From contig CAIFEX010000007.1 in NCBI GenBank assembly GCA_903789665.1, positions 1 to 64,000 on the forward strand: a stretch of 64,000 nucleotides of DNA. The letters run 5' to 3'. Made by a program: the position numbers and the translations under genes. The notes under the pieces were generated by a model, which saw only the letters and a list, made by a program, of their open reading frames with translations, did no database searches and was not told where the DNA came from. This DNA comes from an uncultured Clostridium sp. (lineage in GTDB: Bacteria; Bacillota; Clostridia; Clostridiales; Clostridiaceae). This document shows, in pieces, positions 31,415-47,390 of this stretch (its first letter is position 1; the number at the start of each line of letters is the position of its first letter).

Positions 31415-31643
31415 AATTTAAAGTTGATATAAAAACTGAGATAAGGAATAGTAAACATGTCATGTATTTTAGAGAGAGCGGGAGAAGGTGGAAGGACCGT
31501 AAATAATGCGTGTTGAACTCACCTTTGAGTTGCAGGCTGAAATAACAGTAGGCTGTGCCGACAAATGCCGTTAATGGATTGAGTACAAAATTGGGTGGTA
31601 CCGCGAACAGATTTCTCGCCCCATAGAGAAATCTGTTTTTTTA
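31415..31643 (+). promoter_or_regulatory. T-box leader 1, Leu (CUC specifier)
   Basis: The T-box sequence TGGGTGGTACCGCG is at 31592-31605 and is followed by a terminator with an 11-bp perfect stem (31607-31617 with 31626-31636) and a T7 run. In stem I the specifier-loop pattern GAA-CTC-ACC places the specifier codon CTC at 31518-31520, reading tRNA-Leu(GAG). Uncharged tRNA-Leu would bind and favour the antiterminator. Confidence 0.93.
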
Positions 31644-31671
31644 TATTAACTTATATAGATATTGACAAGCT

Positions 31672-31880
31672 GTGAAGGGAAGCAGTAGGTATAATTTCTA
31701 TTTCAAAGAGAGCAGGTTTTTTGGTGAAAGCCTGTAAGTAGAGTTTGCTGAACTCGTCCTGGAGCTGGAAGCTGAAATTACAAGTAGGCTTTACCGGTTA
31801 AAAACCGTTATTTAATTGAGTATAAAATTGGGTGGTACCGCGAACAGACTTCTCGCCCCAAGGAGGAGCCTGTTTTTTTA
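31672..31880 (+). promoter_or_regulatory. T-box leader 2, Leu (CUC specifier)
   Basis: A second complete T-box directly follows the first: TGGGTGGTACCGCG at 31829-31842, then a 12-bp terminator stem with one mismatch and a T run (31843-31880). GAA-CTC-GTC places the specifier CTC at 31753-31755, again Leu. I see no well-spaced promoter of its own, so both leaders are probably read from one transcript. Confidence 0.92.
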
Positions 31881-39354: not shown

Positions 39355-42219
39355 GTGGCAACTAAAACAGTAATTCCACAAGATCACAATATAATAAAAA
39401 TTCCAATAGAAGAAGCTATGCCGGATAATTATCTTCCCTATGCGGTTGAGGTGGCAAAAGACAGGGCGCTTCCAGACGTCAGGGATGGTCTAAAGCCTGT
39501 ACATAGGAGAATAATATACGGGAGTTATAAATTGAAGGCATTTCCCGACAGACCTTATTACAAATCTGCCAGAATAGTGGGTGACATACTTGGAAAATAT
39601 CATCCTCACGGTGATACTTCCGTATATGATGCCATGGTTATACTGGCCCAGGGTTTTACTACCAGGATGCCCCTCATAGACGGACATGGAAATTGGGGGA
39701 GCCAGGATGGAGACAGCGCTGCAGCTATGCGTTATACGGAGGCAAGGCTTACTCCTATCGCCATGGAGATGATGAGGGATATAGACAAAGATGTGGTAAA
39801 CATGGTAGACAATTATTCGGGTTCCGAAAAAGAACCTGAAGTTCTTCCGGCAAGATATCCCAATCTGCTGGTAAATGGAGCTTTTGGAATAGCCGTAGGC
39901 CTTGCCACTAATATTCCACCACACAACTTGAGAGAAGTGATTGAGGCTGCAGCGGCCTATATAGATAACCCTCACATAACTACTGAAGAGCTTATGGACT
40001 ATGTAAAAGGTCCTGATCTGCCTACCGGCGGAATAATAATAGGTAAGAAGTCCCTCCTTTCCGCCTATGAAACAGGTGAAGGAAGAGTGACATTGAGGGC
40101 CAGGACATCTATAGAAAAGCTGAAAAACGGTAAATTGGCCATAGTTATAACCCAATTTCCCTACAGGAGGAGCAAAGCAAAGTTACTCCAGACTATTTCC
40201 GAGATGACTGCGGACAAGAGACATGCAAAGGTGTTCGAACCTATATCCGATATAAGGGATGAGTCCGACAGGAGAGGTATAAGGGCAGTAATAGAGTTTA
40301 AAAAATCGGCGGATGTTCCACTTGTAAGGAAGATTTTAAAATATCTTTTCAAAAAAACGGATCTGCAGTGCAACCTGTCCTTTAATATGGTGGCTTTGGC
40401 TAATGGAAAGCCCCAGACTATGGGACTTAAGACTATATTGGGCTACTATGTGGATTATCAGAAGGAAATTGTAAGGAGAAGAACGGAGAAAGAGCTGGAT
40501 GCGGCAAAATCGAGGTTTCATATTGTAGAGGGATTTATAAAAGCCATAGGTATAATGGATGAGATCATAAAAACCATAAGGGCTTCCAAATCCAAGAAAA
40601 ATGCCGCCTCCAATCTCATGAATAAATTTCAATTTACGGCCCCACAGGCGGAAGCTATACTGGAACTCATGCTGTATAGGCTTACAGGACTTGAAATAGC
40701 ATCTTTTGAAAAAGAATACAATAAACTTTTAAAGGCCATAAAGAGGCTTACAAAAATATTGGGCAGTGAAAGGGAAATACTTAAAATAATAAAGAGGGAA
40801 CTGAAGAAAATAAGCGAAAAGTACGGTGATAAAAGGAAAACCGCCATTATAGCAGAGGATAGCAAGGCCAAAATAGATGAAGAAGAGATTATGCTGGATG
40901 AAAACATAGTTGTGACGATGTCCAATGAAGCTTTTATAAAGAGAATTTCTGAAAAAAGCTACAGCAGATCCAGTGGAAAAATTGAAGATATAAAATACAG
41001 GGAGGGCGATTTTAACAGGTATCTTATAAATGCCAATACAAAAGATACATTTATGTTCTTTACAGACAAGGGCAATGTCTATAACTTGAAGGGAAGCGGC
41101 ATTCCCGAATTTAAATGGAAGGAAAAGGGTCAGCGGCTTGACAGTATAATAAAAAACCTCGATTTATCTGAAGAGAACATAACTGCGGTCTATAATATTG
41201 GAAACTTGAATTCAAAACAGGATTTTGTATTTTTCACCACCGGTGGGGGAATAAAAAGGACCAAATTGGAATCCTTCATTACAAATTATGTCAGAATTAT
41301 GGCCCTTAAATTGAAAAAGGGAGAGAAACTTTTACGGATGAAACTCTTGGACAGAAATTCTCATATAGGACTTATAGAGATATCTACGAAAATAGGACTT
41401 CATTTTAAGTTGAAAGTGCCTGAAATGGCACCTGGAGGTAGAAATATAGTCACTACAAGCCTCTTTACGCTGCCGGAGGGGGATGCGGTATTGGATGTGA
41501 AGTCCTGCGGCAAATATAAATATGGGGAATTTTATATAAACATGAATAAATCGGGAATGATCAAAGTTTCAAATACCGGAAGGTCAAGCAAAAATGTACT
41601 TACCAATTCAAAATCTGCTGTGCTCATGTTTACTGCAGATGGAAGAGTGTTTTCAATACCTGCATATATGCTCCAGGATATGGGAAATGAGGGAATACAT
41701 ATTACAAAACTTATGGGGAAGATAGATGTGAAAGATGTGCTTGCATTGATTTCCATAGAAAATTTTGACTCGGGGTACATGTACTTTTTTACCGGCGGCG
41801 GAATAGTTAAAAAAACCCCTGCTGCTGAATTTAAAGATATAAATTTATGGGATAGGGCATATAAATTTAAAAACAGGGAAGATTTCCTGATAGATGTAAA
41901 GTACAGCAGGGCTAAAAATCCTCAGGTGCTTCTGGTAAATAACAGTGGTATGGCAATAAAATTCAGGGGGGACTCCATAAGTGCCATGGGAAGGCTGGCT
42001 TCAGGGGTAATAGGAATGAGCCTTAGAGATGATCAGAAAGTTGTATATTCTTTTTTGGCGGACAGTGAAGACAAGATGAATCATGTTTTTATTTTAAATT
42101 CAATTAATGGAAATAGTGCAAAGGTGAAATTAAAAGATATGGCTCTTCAGAACAGGGCCGGCAAGGGTAAAAGCGTTATTTCAATGGATTTGGACGACAG
42201 AGTGGAAAGTATACGTTAA
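39355..42219 (+). CDS. parC: Type IIA topoisomerase DNA-cleaving subunit (ParC/GyrA-like)
   Basis: A 954-residue subunit that cleaves and religates DNA. The active-site Tyr is Y127 in [11 protein letters not shown]; the quinolone-resistance region reads [12 protein letters not shown], with Thr88 at the position of E. coli GyrA Ser83. The C-terminal beta-propeller (about 500-950) lacks a recognisable QRRGGxG GyrA box, favouring a topoisomerase IV-like decatenase over gyrase. It is longer than most ParC proteins (about 800). The start is GTG 39355 after AAAAAGGAGG. The Thr at position 88 is noted as a natural difference only. Confidence 0.82.
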
Positions 42220-42260
42220 AGGATGGATTTTAATAAGATTTGCAATAATTTATAATTGTG

Positions 42261-42289
42261 TTGTAATATTGTGATTATTATATTATAAT
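42261..42289 (+). promoter_or_regulatory. Predicted glpF promoter
   Basis: TTGTAA (42261-42266) and TATAAT (42284-42289), 17-bp spacer. The start point would be about 42296, placing a terminator hairpin inside a ~190-base leader. Confidence 0.65.
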
Positions 42290-42325
42290 GTGTATATGAA
42301 AATCAATAAAGGGCAGAGAAGGGAG

Positions 42326-42378
42326 AGCCGCTTAAAAAAAAGTCAATATGCTTGACTTCTTTTAAGCAGGCTTTTTTT
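42326..42378 (+). terminator. Leader terminator of the glp operon (probable GlpP target)
   Basis: A long stem (GCTTAAAA and AAGTCA pairing with TGACTT and TTTTAAGC, extended by AGCC/GGCT) is followed by a T7 run. It lies between the predicted promoter and glpF, not after parC alone. In Bacillus, GlpP with glycerol-3-phosphate lets polymerase pass such leader terminators; the presence of glpP in this operon supports the same here. It also could serve as parC terminator. Confidence 0.8.
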
Positions 42379-42487
42379 CAGGATAAATATCCGGTTTTTA
42401 ATCTGTAATCGGTTTATCATGTTTTTGTTTTACAATTGTGATGTTAATTTAAATTAACATAATTATTAAGTTAGGGGGAATAATAAC

Positions 42488-43192
42488 ATGTCACACGTAT
42501 TAGCAGAATTTGTTGGAACTGCATTGATGGTCTATTTAGGAGATAGTATATGCGCCAACTGTACCCTTGATAAAACTAAAGGGCACAATGCAGGATGGAT
42601 AGTTATAGCAGCAGGATGGGGTTTTGCAGTAGGGCTTCCTGCGTACTTGTTCTCAAATTTCAGTAATCAGTTTAATCCGGCACTTACCATAGGGCTGGCC
42701 GTTGCCGGCAAGTTTCCGTGGGCACAGGTTCCAGGCTATATTGTAGCCCAGATGCTTGGAGGAATAGTCGGAGGTGTTTTCGTATGGCTTACATATTTAC
42801 CACATTGGGCAGTCACGGAAGATAAAGCTGCAAAATTGGGTATATTCTGTACAGCACCGGCTATAAGAAATTATCCTGCAAACTTTTTGACAGAGTTTTT
42901 GGCTACAGCTACTTTGGTGTTTTCTATAGCTGCAATGGGGGGCGTTAAAGTCGCCGATGGAATGGGTTCCATCGTTGTTGTAAGCGCACTCATCTTTGTC
43001 CTGGGCTGTGCTCTTGGCGGTCCCACTGGATATGCAATGAATCCTGCCAGGGATTTATCACCGAGAATTGCACACGCCATACTTCCAATAGCAGGTAAAG
43101 GCGGTTCGGACTGGTCGTATTCCTGGGTTCCTGTGTTTGGACCAGTGGCAGGGGGAATAGCCGGGGCATTGCTATTTGTGTTAGTATTTTAG
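42488..43192 (+). CDS. glpF: Glycerol facilitator (aquaglyceroporin)
   Basis: A 234-residue channel of the MIP family with six membrane helices. The two pore motifs are FNPAL (N63-P64-A65) and AMNPARDLSPRI; the Asp after the second NPAR is the aquaglyceroporin signature. The first gene of the glpF-glpP-glpK operon, preceded by TTAGGGGGAA. It supplies glycerol to GlpK. Confidence 0.93.
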   Translation: MSHVLAEFVGTALMVYLGDSICANCTLDKTKGHNAGWIVIAAGWGFAVGLPAYLFSNFSNQFNPALTIGLAVAGKFPWAQVPGYIVAQMLGGIVGGVFVWLTYLPHWAVTEDKAAKLGIFCTAPAIRNYPANFLTEFLATATLVFSIAAMGGVKVADGMGSIVVVSALIFVLGCALGGPTGYAMNPARDLSPRIAHAILPIAGKGGSDWSYSWVPVFGPVAGGIAGALLFVLVF

Positions 43193-43232
43193 TGATAGTT
43201 GTTCAGATTAATTAAAAAGGAAGTTTTTGTCA

Positions 43233-43796
43233 ATGCCTAAATTTGAAAAAGAACTCATAGAGAACCCTATTATAGCAGCTGTTAGAAATGAAGAAGATTT
43301 GGATTTTGCTGTTTTGAGCAGGGCGGCTATAGTATTTGTTCTCTATGGAGACATATTGAACATTCCAGATATATGTTCTAAAATCAGGGAAAAGAATAAA
43401 ATGACTTTTATTCACGTTGATTTAATAGACGGATTGAAAGGTGATTTTGCAGGAGTAAAATATATAAAGCACTGTGCAAAACCAACAGGGATAATAAGCA
43501 CCAAATCCTCCACTATCAGATACGGAAATCAGCTGAATCTGCTTACTATACAGAGAATATTCATGCTGGATTCGCTTTCCCTTAAAACGGGAATAAAGAG
43601 CATACGTGAAAACAACCCTGATGCGCTGGAAGTTTTACCTGGTATAGCAAGCAAGATAATAGGAGTCCTCAAAAGAGAGACAAAAATTCCCATCATAGCA
43701 GGTGGGCTTATAAAAGAGAAAAGGGATATAATGGAATCTCTATCTGCAGGGGCCATAGCTATATCTTCTACTACTCGAAAATTGTGGAATTTATAA
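43233..43796 (+). CDS. glpP: Glycerol-3-phosphate-responsive antiterminator GlpP
   Basis: A 187-residue TIM-barrel RNA-binding regulator. NPIIAAVRNEEDL, FIHVDLIDGL, GIISTKSSTIRYGNQ, QRIFMLDSLSLKTGI, DALEVLPGIASKII and IIAGGLIKEKRDIMESLSAGAIAISST are the family's conserved blocks. GlpP binds leader mRNA in the presence of glycerol-3-phosphate and prevents termination. ATG 43233 lies 9 bases after AAGGAAG; a TTG at 43227 is too close. It lies between glpF and glpK, so the regulator is in its own target operon. Confidence 0.93.
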   Translation: MPKFEKELIENPIIAAVRNEEDLDFAVLSRAAIVFVLYGDILNIPDICSKIREKNKMTFIHVDLIDGLKGDFAGVKYIKHCAKPTGIISTKSSTIRYGNQLNLLTIQRIFMLDSLSLKTGIKSIRENNPDALEVLPGIASKIIGVLKRETKIPIIAGGLIKEKRDIMESLSAGAIAISSTTRKLWNL

Positions 43797-43935
43797 ATGG
43801 GAACCGCAGGGACTGCGGGGGTAGCCTGGTAAACGAGAGAAACAGCTGCTTGTAGTGTATGCACTGTAAGTTAAGTATTTTCCTCTGTTCCCGGGAAGCT
43901 CTGACTTTACGTAAAACTAAGTCGGAGCGGTCCAC
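43797..43935 (+). ncRNA. Compact structured RNA candidate between glpP and glpK
   Basis: The 163-bp gap between glpP and glpK folds into a closed multi-branched shape. A long-range stem pairs GGGAAC (43799-43804) with GTTCCC (43887-43892). Inside it are CCGCAG/CTGCGG (43804-43809, 43813-43818), GTAGC/GCTGC (43821-43825, 43845-43849) and AGTG/CACT (43854-43857, 43862-43865). A separate hairpin, GCTCTGACTT/AAGTCGGAGC (43898-43907, 43919-43928), follows. There is no T-run, so it is not a simple terminator. It begins right after the glpP stop and ends 25 bases before the glpK start. Possible identities are a cis-regulatory glpK leader, a GlpP-binding RNA or an independent RNA; some blocks recall the clostridial raiA motif, but I cannot confirm this from memory. 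Confidence 0.65.
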
Positions 43936-43944
43936 TAAAATTAA

Positions 43945-45465
<1,521 letters not shown>

Positions 45466-45475
45466 GACCAATTTC

Positions 45476-45517
45476 AATCCTGAGATGATATTACTGTCGT
45501 CTTGGGATTTTTTTTAT
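45476..45517 (+). terminator. Terminator of the glp operon
   Basis: A 12-pair stem including three G-T pairs, starting AATCCTGAGATG (45476-45487) and ending with GGGATT at 45509, is followed by a T7 tract. Confidence 0.75.
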
Positions 45518-45527
45518 AATCGTACAG

Positions 45528-45539
45528 TTATGGTATAAT
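45528..45539 (+). promoter_or_regulatory. Extended -10 promoter of the DJ-1/PfpI gene
   Basis: TGGTATAAT (TG, one base, then TATAAT at 45534-45539) is an extended -10 element 20 bp before the start codon; no good -35 is needed. Confidence 0.55.
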
Positions 45540-45558
45540 TTATTAGAGGTGATTTATT

Positions 45559-46113
45559 ATGAAAAAAGCTGTAGTTTTACTTGCAAGGGGTTTTGAGGAA
45601 GTGGAAGCCCTTACTTGTGTGGATGTATTGAGAAGGGGCGGAGTACACTGTGTAACCTGTTCCATAAGCTCGGATCGTGATGTAGCCAGCTGCCACGAAG
45701 TACATGTGAGAGCTGATAATTTGTTGAAAGACATGCACACGGACAAATATGATGTAATTATAATACCCGGGGGTATGCCCGGTGCGGAAAATCTCAAGGA
45801 TGACGGTGAAGTTGTAAATCTGGTAAGGAAATTCTATAGTAATAATAAAATAGTGGCGGCAATATGTGCTGGACCAATAGTGCTTGGAAAAGCCGGGATA
45901 ATTGAAGGCAAAAAGGTGACCTGCTATCCCGGATTCGAGAAAGATCTCGGATCTATTGACTTCAGTCGTGAAATTGTAGTTCAGGACGGTAATATAATAA
46001 CCAGCAGGGGTCCTGCTACAGCTGTTTACTTTGCCTTTAGAATACTGCAGAATCTTGCAGATGGGAACACGGTGGAAAATTTGAAAAAGGATATGCTGTT
46101 GAATTTGATTTAG
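45559..46113 (+). CDS. DJ-1/PfpI family protein
   Basis: A 184-residue class-I glutamine amidotransferase-like protein (YajL/ThiJ branch). The opening VVLLARGFEEVEALTCVDVLRRGG contains the conserved Glu, and the reactive Cys is in VAAICAGPIVLGKAG. Family members are proposed as deglycases, chaperones or thiol sensors; no single function is established for this branch. The ATG follows AGAGGTGA. It is probably cotranscribed with the M16 peptidase gene 35 bp downstream. Confidence 0.88.
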   Translation: MKKAVVLLARGFEEVEALTCVDVLRRGGVHCVTCSISSDRDVASCHEVHVRADNLLKDMHTDKYDVIIIPGGMPGAENLKDDGEVVNLVRKFYSNNKIVAAICAGPIVLGKAGIIEGKKVTCYPGFEKDLGSIDFSREIVVQDGNIITSRGPATAVYFAFRILQNLADGNTVENLKKDMLLNLI

Positions 46114-46148
46114 CTTCAGGGTTTACCTGTAGGAAGAGAGGGCAAAAA

Positions 46149-47390
46149 GTGAGAGAATATGTGCTTGAAAATGGAGTGAAGCTCTTATACAAATACAGAT
46201 CGGGAGTACTTACTTCACTGTGTGTGGGATTTAATGCCGGAGCTCTGGAGGAAATCGGGCAGTTTGATTTTGGAACGGCCCACGCCCTGGAGCATGTCAT
46301 ATCCAAGGGGACCAGACATAGGAACGAGAAGCAGATAAACGATGAACTTGACAGTGTATTCGGATTTGAAAATGCCATGACAAATTATCCGTACACCATA
46401 TATTACGGAACCTGTTTTTCGGAGGATTTTGAAAGGGCGCTGGAACTTTACAGCGATGTGCTCCTGAACCCGGTTTTCCCTGAAGAAGGGTTTGGGGAGG
46501 AAATGGATGTAATACTTCAGGAGCGCAAGGATTGGGAAGATGACTTATACAGAAGATGTGAAGATGTCCTCTTTGAGAATTCGTTTGAAAAGAGAAGAAT
46601 AAGGGAGCTCATAGTGGGAAATGAAAAGAGCATAAAGAACATTGATCTGGAAGAAATAAAAAGATTTTACAGCACATTTTATTTCCCTGGAAACTGTACT
46701 ATGTGTTTTTGTTCTTCTCTGGATTTTAAAAGTATAATTTCCATTGTGTGCAGGTATTTCGAAAAATGGAAGGGCATGCCTTTGTCTTGCAGTGCAAAAT
46801 TGCCTCTGTATGAAAAGAACAAGGCAGGGGTATTTGTGGAAAAAGTGCCCGGGGATGCTGGTGCCAAAATCCAGTATATATTTGACATTCATGATTTAGA
46901 TGAAAGGGAATTCAAGGCACTTTGTCTTTTTAATGCTGTTTTTGGTCAGGGAAACGGAAGCCTTCTGTTCAGCAGGCTCAGAACCGATGAGGGCATTGCC
47001 TATGACCTGGGAAGCACTATAAGAGACGAAAGAGGTGTAAAACTTTTTTCTATAAGAATGAGTACTTTGCCCGAACATATAGATAGTGCACTTGACATTA
47101 TAGATGGTGCCGTAGAAAAATCAAAAAGATTGAAGGGATATTTCAGCGGCGATAGAATAAAGAGGATTGGAAGAAGTCTGAAATTGAAAAGGGAAATCAA
47201 GAGGGAAAAGTCCGTTGAATACTGCAAGGAAATCGTGGAATGGGAACTTATGTACAGGAGGTTTCACGACTGCTGTAATTCCTGCAGTGAAGTTCGGTGG
47301 GATGAAATTGATGATGCGGATATAGTCAGAGCTGTGAATAAGGCCCTGCGAAATCCCTCTGTACAGATATTGAGCTCAATTGACGATTGA
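46149..47390 (+). CDS. M16 family zinc peptidase
   Basis: A 413-residue M16-type protein (processing peptidase/YmxG-like). The inverted zinc motif HxxEH is present as HALEH at about residues 40-44, with the downstream Glu expected near ERKDWEDDLYRRCEDVLFENSF. The C-terminal half is the usual second M16 domain (DRLRTDEGIAYDLGS-like stretch is FSRLRTDEGIAYDLGS). The GTG start follows GAGAGGG. Substrate unknown. The last codons run into the repeat upstream of recJ. Confidence 0.85.
   Translation: MREYVLENGVKLLYKYRSGVLTSLCVGFNAGALEEIGQFDFGTAHALEHVISKGTRHRNEKQINDELDSVFGFENAMTNYPYTIYYGTCFSEDFERALELYSDVLLNPVFPEEGFGEEMDVILQERKDWEDDLYRRCEDVLFENSFEKRRIRELIVGNEKSIKNIDLEEIKRFYSTFYFPGNCTMCFCSSLDFKSIISIVCRYFEKWKGMPLSCSAKLPLYEKNKAGVFVEKVPGDAGAKIQYIFDIHDLDEREFKALCLFNAVFGQGNGSLLFSRLRTDEGIAYDLGSTIRDERGVKLFSIRMSTLPEHIDSALDIIDGAVEKSKRLKGYFSGDRIKRIGRSLKLKREIKREKSVEYCKEIVEWELMYRRFHDCCNSCSEVRWDEIDDADIVRAVNKALRNPSVQILSSIDD

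Follow-up and report, generated by a model that had tools for sequence, protein, structure and literature searches.

What kind of RNA lies between glpP and glpK in a Clostridium operon whose own regulator is an RNA-binding antiterminator? The window, that is, the whole stretch of 64,000 nucleotides analysed here, carries the operon on its forward strand in the order glpF-glpP-glpK. glpF was identified as MIP by Pfam, glpP (43227-43796) encodes the GlpP antiterminator (PF04309, G3P_antiterm, E 2.2e-64), and glpK (43960-45465) encodes a kinase of the FGGY type (PF00370 and PF02782). The element under study occupies 43797-43935 on the same strand. Its first base is right behind the glpP stop codon and its last base is 24 bases ahead of the glpK start, which bears out the position given in an earlier note on this DNA.

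The earlier note had proposed a folded structure in this gap, and the folding calculations agreed. The 154-nt strand folded at -52.1 kcal/mol, compared to a mean of -39.82 for dinucleotide shuffles (z -3.36), and 0 of 200 shuffles were equally stable. The predicted fold contained all the parts drawn in the earlier note: the GGGAAC/GTTCCC closure, the inner hairpins and the 10-bp hairpin at the 3' side. The absence of a T-run, also claimed before, was confirmed in that no strong T-run was seen, and a terminator scan gave only one weak site, at 43848-43871. Reading the element as a terminator was rejected, as there was nothing beyond this weak terminator-like pattern. At the gathering level, Rfam found only two T-boxes in the window, which are tandem leaders at 31429-31626 (110.7 bits) and 31663-31863 (124.6 bits).

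Relatives of the element and their linkage to tnpB

Among phages, blastn located the 5' block of the element in two Brochothrix phage A9 records (43 nt at 88%). The matched segment begins 10 nt past gp191, a 403-aa TnpB with PF01385 (OrfB_IS605), PF07282 (Cas12f1-like_TNB) and PF12323 (HTH_OrfB_IS605). The whole A9 segment has a layout in common with the window element and terminates in GGTTCAC. TnpB is the ancestor of Cas12. A plasmid search with the element gave no match.

Next, a degenerate 25-mer pattern taken from the 5' block was searched for; it occurred at least 119 times in genome contigs and 50 times in viral contigs. The matches listed comprised 163 unique sites after removal of 10 duplicates and the window's own match, and 117 of these 163 were linked to TnpB, with a spacing of 6-19 nt between the stop codon and the motif in 109 of the linked sites listed. 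Among the listed sites with at least 150 upstream bases, an ORF matching a TnpB HMM ended no more than 80 nt away in 114 of 130 (75 of 86 in genome contigs and 39 of 44 in viral contigs). The 33 listed genome sites with fewer than 150 bases upstream were not judged for TnpB. Sixteen listed sites were unlinked despite enough upstream DNA; one of them, L045, looks by eye like a chance match to the pattern and is still counted in the 16, and two others are the mini-elements L126 and L135 described below.

A covariance model, R1, was then built from 16 TnpB-linked relatives, none of them from the genus of the window. Its rows are the long-arm omega-RNAs, located 6-41 nt behind tnpB, of TnpBs from Lysinibacillus, Enterococcus, Staphylococcus microti, Tetragenococcus and Brochothrix phage A9. 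R1 matched the window end to end at 43797-43935 (74.2 bits, E 2.5e-17, model positions 1-147; 74.1 bits unfiltered), so the ends given in the earlier note were returned exactly by an independent model. R1 matches at E up to 0.01 were found in 27 of the 225 genomes of the order. In domain order and core sequence, the window copy agrees with these long-arm omega-RNAs; compared to most of them, its stem 3b is longer and its stem 4 loop is shorter.

Judging from these sequence relatives, the element at 43797-43935 is a TnpB omega-RNA (reRNA) scaffold and represents the right end of an element of the IS200/IS605 type. As in IS200/IS605 elements, tnpB immediately precedes the relatives of this RNA, which end at the right end of the transposon. 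The window copy differs from them in that it has no adjacent tnpB and no detected left end and is located inside a metabolic operon. No TnpB HMM matched beside the element at E up to 1 (window positions 41001-46500), and therefore an orphan omega-RNA is claimed here rather than a TnpB system. The earlier note had considered a GlpP-binding site, a new glp-specific cis-regulator, an independent conserved RNA carried within the operon, and a resemblance to raiA RNA. Only the independent conserved RNA stands, as a member of a family of transposon guide RNAs that includes TnpB-linked RNAs.

The best Rfam relative of the window copy is RF02841, Ref70 (Enterococcus sRNA 70), at 32.6 bits and E 0.00035 on 301 bases, which is far below the Ref70 gathering score of 115. 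Two Enterococcus loci matched Ref70 over the cut-off, L037:2896-3018 (140.3 bits) and L123:5883-6004 (135.6 bits), and these lie 8 and 9 nt, respectively, behind TnpB ORFs. The TnpB protein at the first locus matched OrfB_IS605 and HTH_OrfB over cut-off, with no Cas12f1-like_TNB match listed. Since both of the members tested adjoin TnpB ORFs, Ref70 itself looks like a TnpB omega-RNA. A limited literature search found no publication that identifies Ref70 in this way.

Anatomy of the RNA compared with ISDra2 TnpB

In the cryo-EM structure of ISDra2 TnpB, as described in the cited account, the omega-RNA has stems 1-4, and a pseudoknot is formed between a tract close to the 5' end and the bases immediately preceding the guide (PMC10097598). 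Following that account, the pseudoknot tract of the window-copy family was placed in the loop of the 5' hairpin. The likeness covers a stem 1 loop pseudoknotted with GUUC just before the guide, and stems 2, 3 and 4 (PMC10097598). By this comparison, stems 1, 2, 3a and 4 and the pseudoknot of the window copy reproduce the anatomy solved for ISDra2.

The anatomy was evaluated in an 18-row alignment of the window copy, the copy of a second genome of the genus (G010) and the 16 TnpB-linked rows. The conserved architecture consists of stem 1, the pseudoknot, stem 2, stems 3a and 3b, and stem 4. It was paired in 96.8% of 569 cells, and 10 of its 33 pairs were changed on both sides. No shuffle out of 500 attained these pairing and double-change values, and slid versions of the architecture were 37-49% paired with 0-5 pairs changed on both sides. 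The closing stem GGGAAC/GTTCCC described in the earlier note can form in the window copy, but it was rejected as conserved architecture, since it was paired in 60.2% of cells and 0 pairs were changed on both sides in the same alignment.

Stem 1 (43804-43818) is CCGCA/TGCGG around the loop GGGAC; the family's common U-A pair is C-G here. Its helix was paired in 100% of cells across the 18 rows, and two of its five pairs were double-changed somewhere in the alignment. The 5' strand of the pseudoknot, GGAC (43810-43813), was mapped on that of ISDra2 (PMC10097598) and lies in the stem 1 loop. The 3' strand is GTCC (43930-43933), just ahead of the guide, and reads GTTC in the other 17 rows. The pair concerned is G-C in the window copy and A-U (15) or G-U (2) in the other rows. 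The pseudoknot as a whole was paired in 100% of cells, with one pair double-changed.

Stem 2 is formed by CCTGG (43825-43829) and CCGGG (43891-43895), where the family version is CTTGG/CCAAG. The window row thus has one double change from U-A to C-G and one U-G wobble, and all five pairs are standard. Stem 3a pairs AGAG (43836-43839) with CTCT (43883-43886). Stem 3b, CTTGTAGTG/CACTGTAAG (43849-43870), is a 9-bp hairpin of its own that is longer than in the relatives. Three of its six family pairs fail in the aligned columns, and these are the sole broken family pairs of the window row. Stem 4, the 10-bp right-end hairpin GCTCTGACTT/AAGTCGGAGC (43898-43928), was recovered in both the fold and the alignment. 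This hairpin type is also present in both other copies of the genus, and the genus 3' hairpin pattern occurred only in these three genus copies among the 225 genomes. By homology with ISDra2, the putative guide position would be 43936-43955, TAAAATTAAAAAGGAGGATG, which is the ribosome-binding region of glpK.

Other copies, insertion history and partner proteins

In the element's own genome, a DNA search detected a second significant match, C2:4812-4852 (E 7.4e-4), which is flanked by a Fur-family gene and the gene for RNase J. This fur-rnjA copy has decayed and scored 27.4 bits with R1. These are the only two copies in the genome, and they are dissimilar to each other. Searching 59 genomes gave one more copy, at locus L008 of the same-genus genome G010 (72%, E 8.6e-11), flanked by ORFs that have no Pfam match and are tad/Flp pilus-like by eye. 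That genome also carries another omega-RNA of the family, L246:1501-1658 on its contig C2 (85.6 bits), with no TnpB-HMM match within the 3.2-kb locus.

glpP was found by search in 7 of 13 genomes of the genus. Sister glpP-glpK gaps, the comparison proposed earlier, contained no element in 6 of 6 cases, and neither did any of the 12 other fur-rnjA loci (R1, E up to 10 in both cases). Since the other gaps and loci lack the element, these comparisons indicate that the glp copy is a lineage-specific insertion. In the two closest sister species, G010 (L189) and G008 (L190), the glpP-glpK gap is occupied by a hairpin of another kind, TGGAATTTCA...TGAAATTCCA.

The right flank is common to both states of the site: TTTAC TAAAATTATGAAGGAGGATG stands at the end of the G008 gap, and ...GGTCCAC followed by TAAAATTAAAAAGGAGGATG in the window. 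To the left of the left end, TTTAAC was found in seven of the eight relatives with a clear left end and GTTAAC in one; the left-end match of L017, with 13 differences, had been excluded before this count. Because TTTAAC flanks so many of these left ends, the sequences suggest that TTTAA is the target motif. G008, the closest sister gap, has TTTAC at the expected target site, one base off TTTAA, and an empty insertion site would read TTTAA then TAAAATTA.

Left ends were compared against shuffles. The left end of the copy in G010 matched four intact or mini left ends, with 0 of 300 shuffles as good in each case. Left of 43799 in the window copy no significant left end was found, as 28-198 of 300 shuffles were as good (best 28), and the same was true of the fur-rnjA copy (22-195 of 300). 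TnpB-less mini-elements exist in one Clostridium MAG, where L126 and L135 have the same left end and omega-RNA at two loci, with the IS left-end hairpin about 50 bases ahead of the omega-RNA. The TnpB-bearing genomes G001, G008 and G010 were rejected as direct donors; the TnpB flanks inspected there carry another omega-RNA type.

The own genome was also searched for a partner nuclease. PF01385 (OrfB_IS605) gave no match at E up to 1, and PF07282 (Cas12f1-like_TNB) matched below cut-off only, within a topoisomerase. The A9 TnpB used as a query matched in 8 of 13 genus genomes and had no match in the own genome at 1e-5. A TnpB fragment of another type, with stops, was found at L260:1501-1713 (contig C21 of the own genome, from 18451). 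It has PF12323 at 28.1 bits and resembles a TnpB of G010, and no omega-RNA of the window kind was found near it (best 6.6 bits). Provisionally, then, the own genome appears to have no intact TnpB. This statement is provisional because the assembly is a draft of 63 contigs, and insertion sequences often drop into assembly gaps.

Relic, host element or mobile element

We consider it likely that the element is an orphan TnpB omega-RNA, most probably an immobile relic in the glp mRNA that serves at most as a structured spacer before glpK. An IS200/IS605-type element, or a tnpB-less mini-derivative of it consisting of a left end and an omega-RNA, would have inserted just 5' of the glpK ribosome-binding site. 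All that lay between the glpP stop and the omega-RNA would then have been lost, including the native spacer hairpin seen in the two sister species. What remains would be the right end and a complete guide-RNA scaffold within the glpF-glpP-glpK transcript. Scaffold binding, guide use and cleavage of empty sites are established for TnpB generally. In intact relatives of this clade, TnpB would accordingly be expected to bind the scaffold through stem 1, the pseudoknot and stems 2-4, the guide would be the bases just beyond the right end, and cutting of empty target sites would keep the transposon in place.

This reading is supported directly by the homology, the anatomy, the position of the relatives behind TnpB and the absence of the element from sister loci. 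The route of insertion and deletion is inferred, because the glp copy has no detectable left end, and so is the absence of a present function. A relic is favoured because the structure may have been kept in an active ancestor and only one genome has the insertion. Against this, all core helices have been kept and the pseudoknot pair has been strengthened from A-U or G-U to G-C, while the fur-rnjA copy decayed. The retention of the core helices means that the window copy could still work.

Another possible explanation, which we regard as unlikely though worth weighing, is exaptation, in which TnpB was lost, the scaffold was kept for host use and the native hairpin of the sister type was replaced. 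Such an RNA might stabilise or process the mRNA between glpP and glpK, or shield the glpK ribosome-binding site. With the same low probability, the captured scaffold would be under selection as an mRNA element that sets glpK expression, or as a ready guide, directed by the glpK ribosome-binding region, for any incoming TnpB. In the window row, stem 1, the pseudoknot and stems 2, 3a and 4 are all paired despite 15 substitutions at paired positions. Five window pairs were changed on both sides relative to the consensus, and three were unpaired where 9.6 were expected (simple substitution model, P 0.0006). Also consistent with host use are the trimming of the remnant to its RNA module, with the glpP stop on one side and the glpK ribosome-binding site on the other, the other hairpin in the G008 and G010 gaps, and the decay of the second copy in the same genome. 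However, the compensatory changes may predate the insertion, since the TnpB-less copy of G010 scored P 0.0008 and several TnpB-linked rows scored P 0.01 or lower in the same substitution model. Only one genome carries the insertion, and recency accounts equally well for the intactness of the RNA.

A mobile element would differ from the relic favoured here in still moving as a non-autonomous, PATE- or MITE-like mini-element, with a Y1 transposase acting in trans and TnpB supplied from elsewhere. PATEs are mini-elements without Tnp. We think this improbable. TnpB-less copies with a left end do exist (L126, L135 and the G010 copy), each with a left end and an omega-RNA, and the own genome has one Y1_Tnp domain protein over cut-off (195 aa). 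In contrast to those PATE-like copies, which combine a left-end hairpin with a right end, the glp copy has no detectable left end. Moreover, the Y1 protein may be of the REP-associated type rather than an IS200 TnpA, and the own genome has just two copies, which do not resemble each other.

The location between glpP and glpK, in an operon that encodes an RNA-binding antiterminator (PF04309), had made a GlpP-binding site or another glp-specific cis-regulatory element attractive, but this now seems highly improbable. The element is absent from all six sister gaps, copies occur at unrelated loci, and outside the genus the relatives sit behind tnpB genes. In B. subtilis, GlpP acts on terminators just 3' of its target promoters, according to the cited account (PMC9604022). 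Such an arrangement was found upstream of glpF, where a promoter-like site is followed by a leader, GGCAGAGA...GAGAGCC, and a terminator. The leader with its intrinsic terminator, GGGCAGAGAAGGGAGAGCC..., lies at 42311-42378 on the forward strand, and its blocks are conserved by eye in 7 of 7 glpP genomes of the genus. From these sequences, the likely GlpP target is the glpF leader and not the glpP-glpK gap, and a GlpP conditional terminator at the element, which is not conserved together with glpP, was rejected. Least credible of all is a raiA RNA, which had been suggested by an impression of similar blocks only: the end-to-end match is to TnpB-linked RNAs instead, and Rfam, in a library that we take to include the raiA model, returned three families for 43700-44000 at E up to 10, Ref70, DUF2815 and mir-148, and no raiA.

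A precedent comes from RAGATH-18, a structured RNA that was catalogued without a function and later recognised as an IS607 TnpB guide RNA (PMC11061315). In the cited account, 64% of its copies (10,258 of 16,029) adjoin an IS607 TnpB, and therefore TnpB-less copies are known there as well (PMC11061315). RAGATH-18 differs from the RNA described here in that it belongs to IS607 and not to IS200/IS605, and it is a separate RNA family. As with RAGATH-18, sRNA catalogues may contain further TnpB guides that have not been recognised. In the organism studied here, a folded RNA of unexplained nature within a metabolic operon can now be read as a probable relic of a TnpB guide RNA, and such relics can pass for riboswitch candidates. 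Should the glp copy prove to have a function, it would illustrate how a host can retain a guide RNA after loss of the nuclease.
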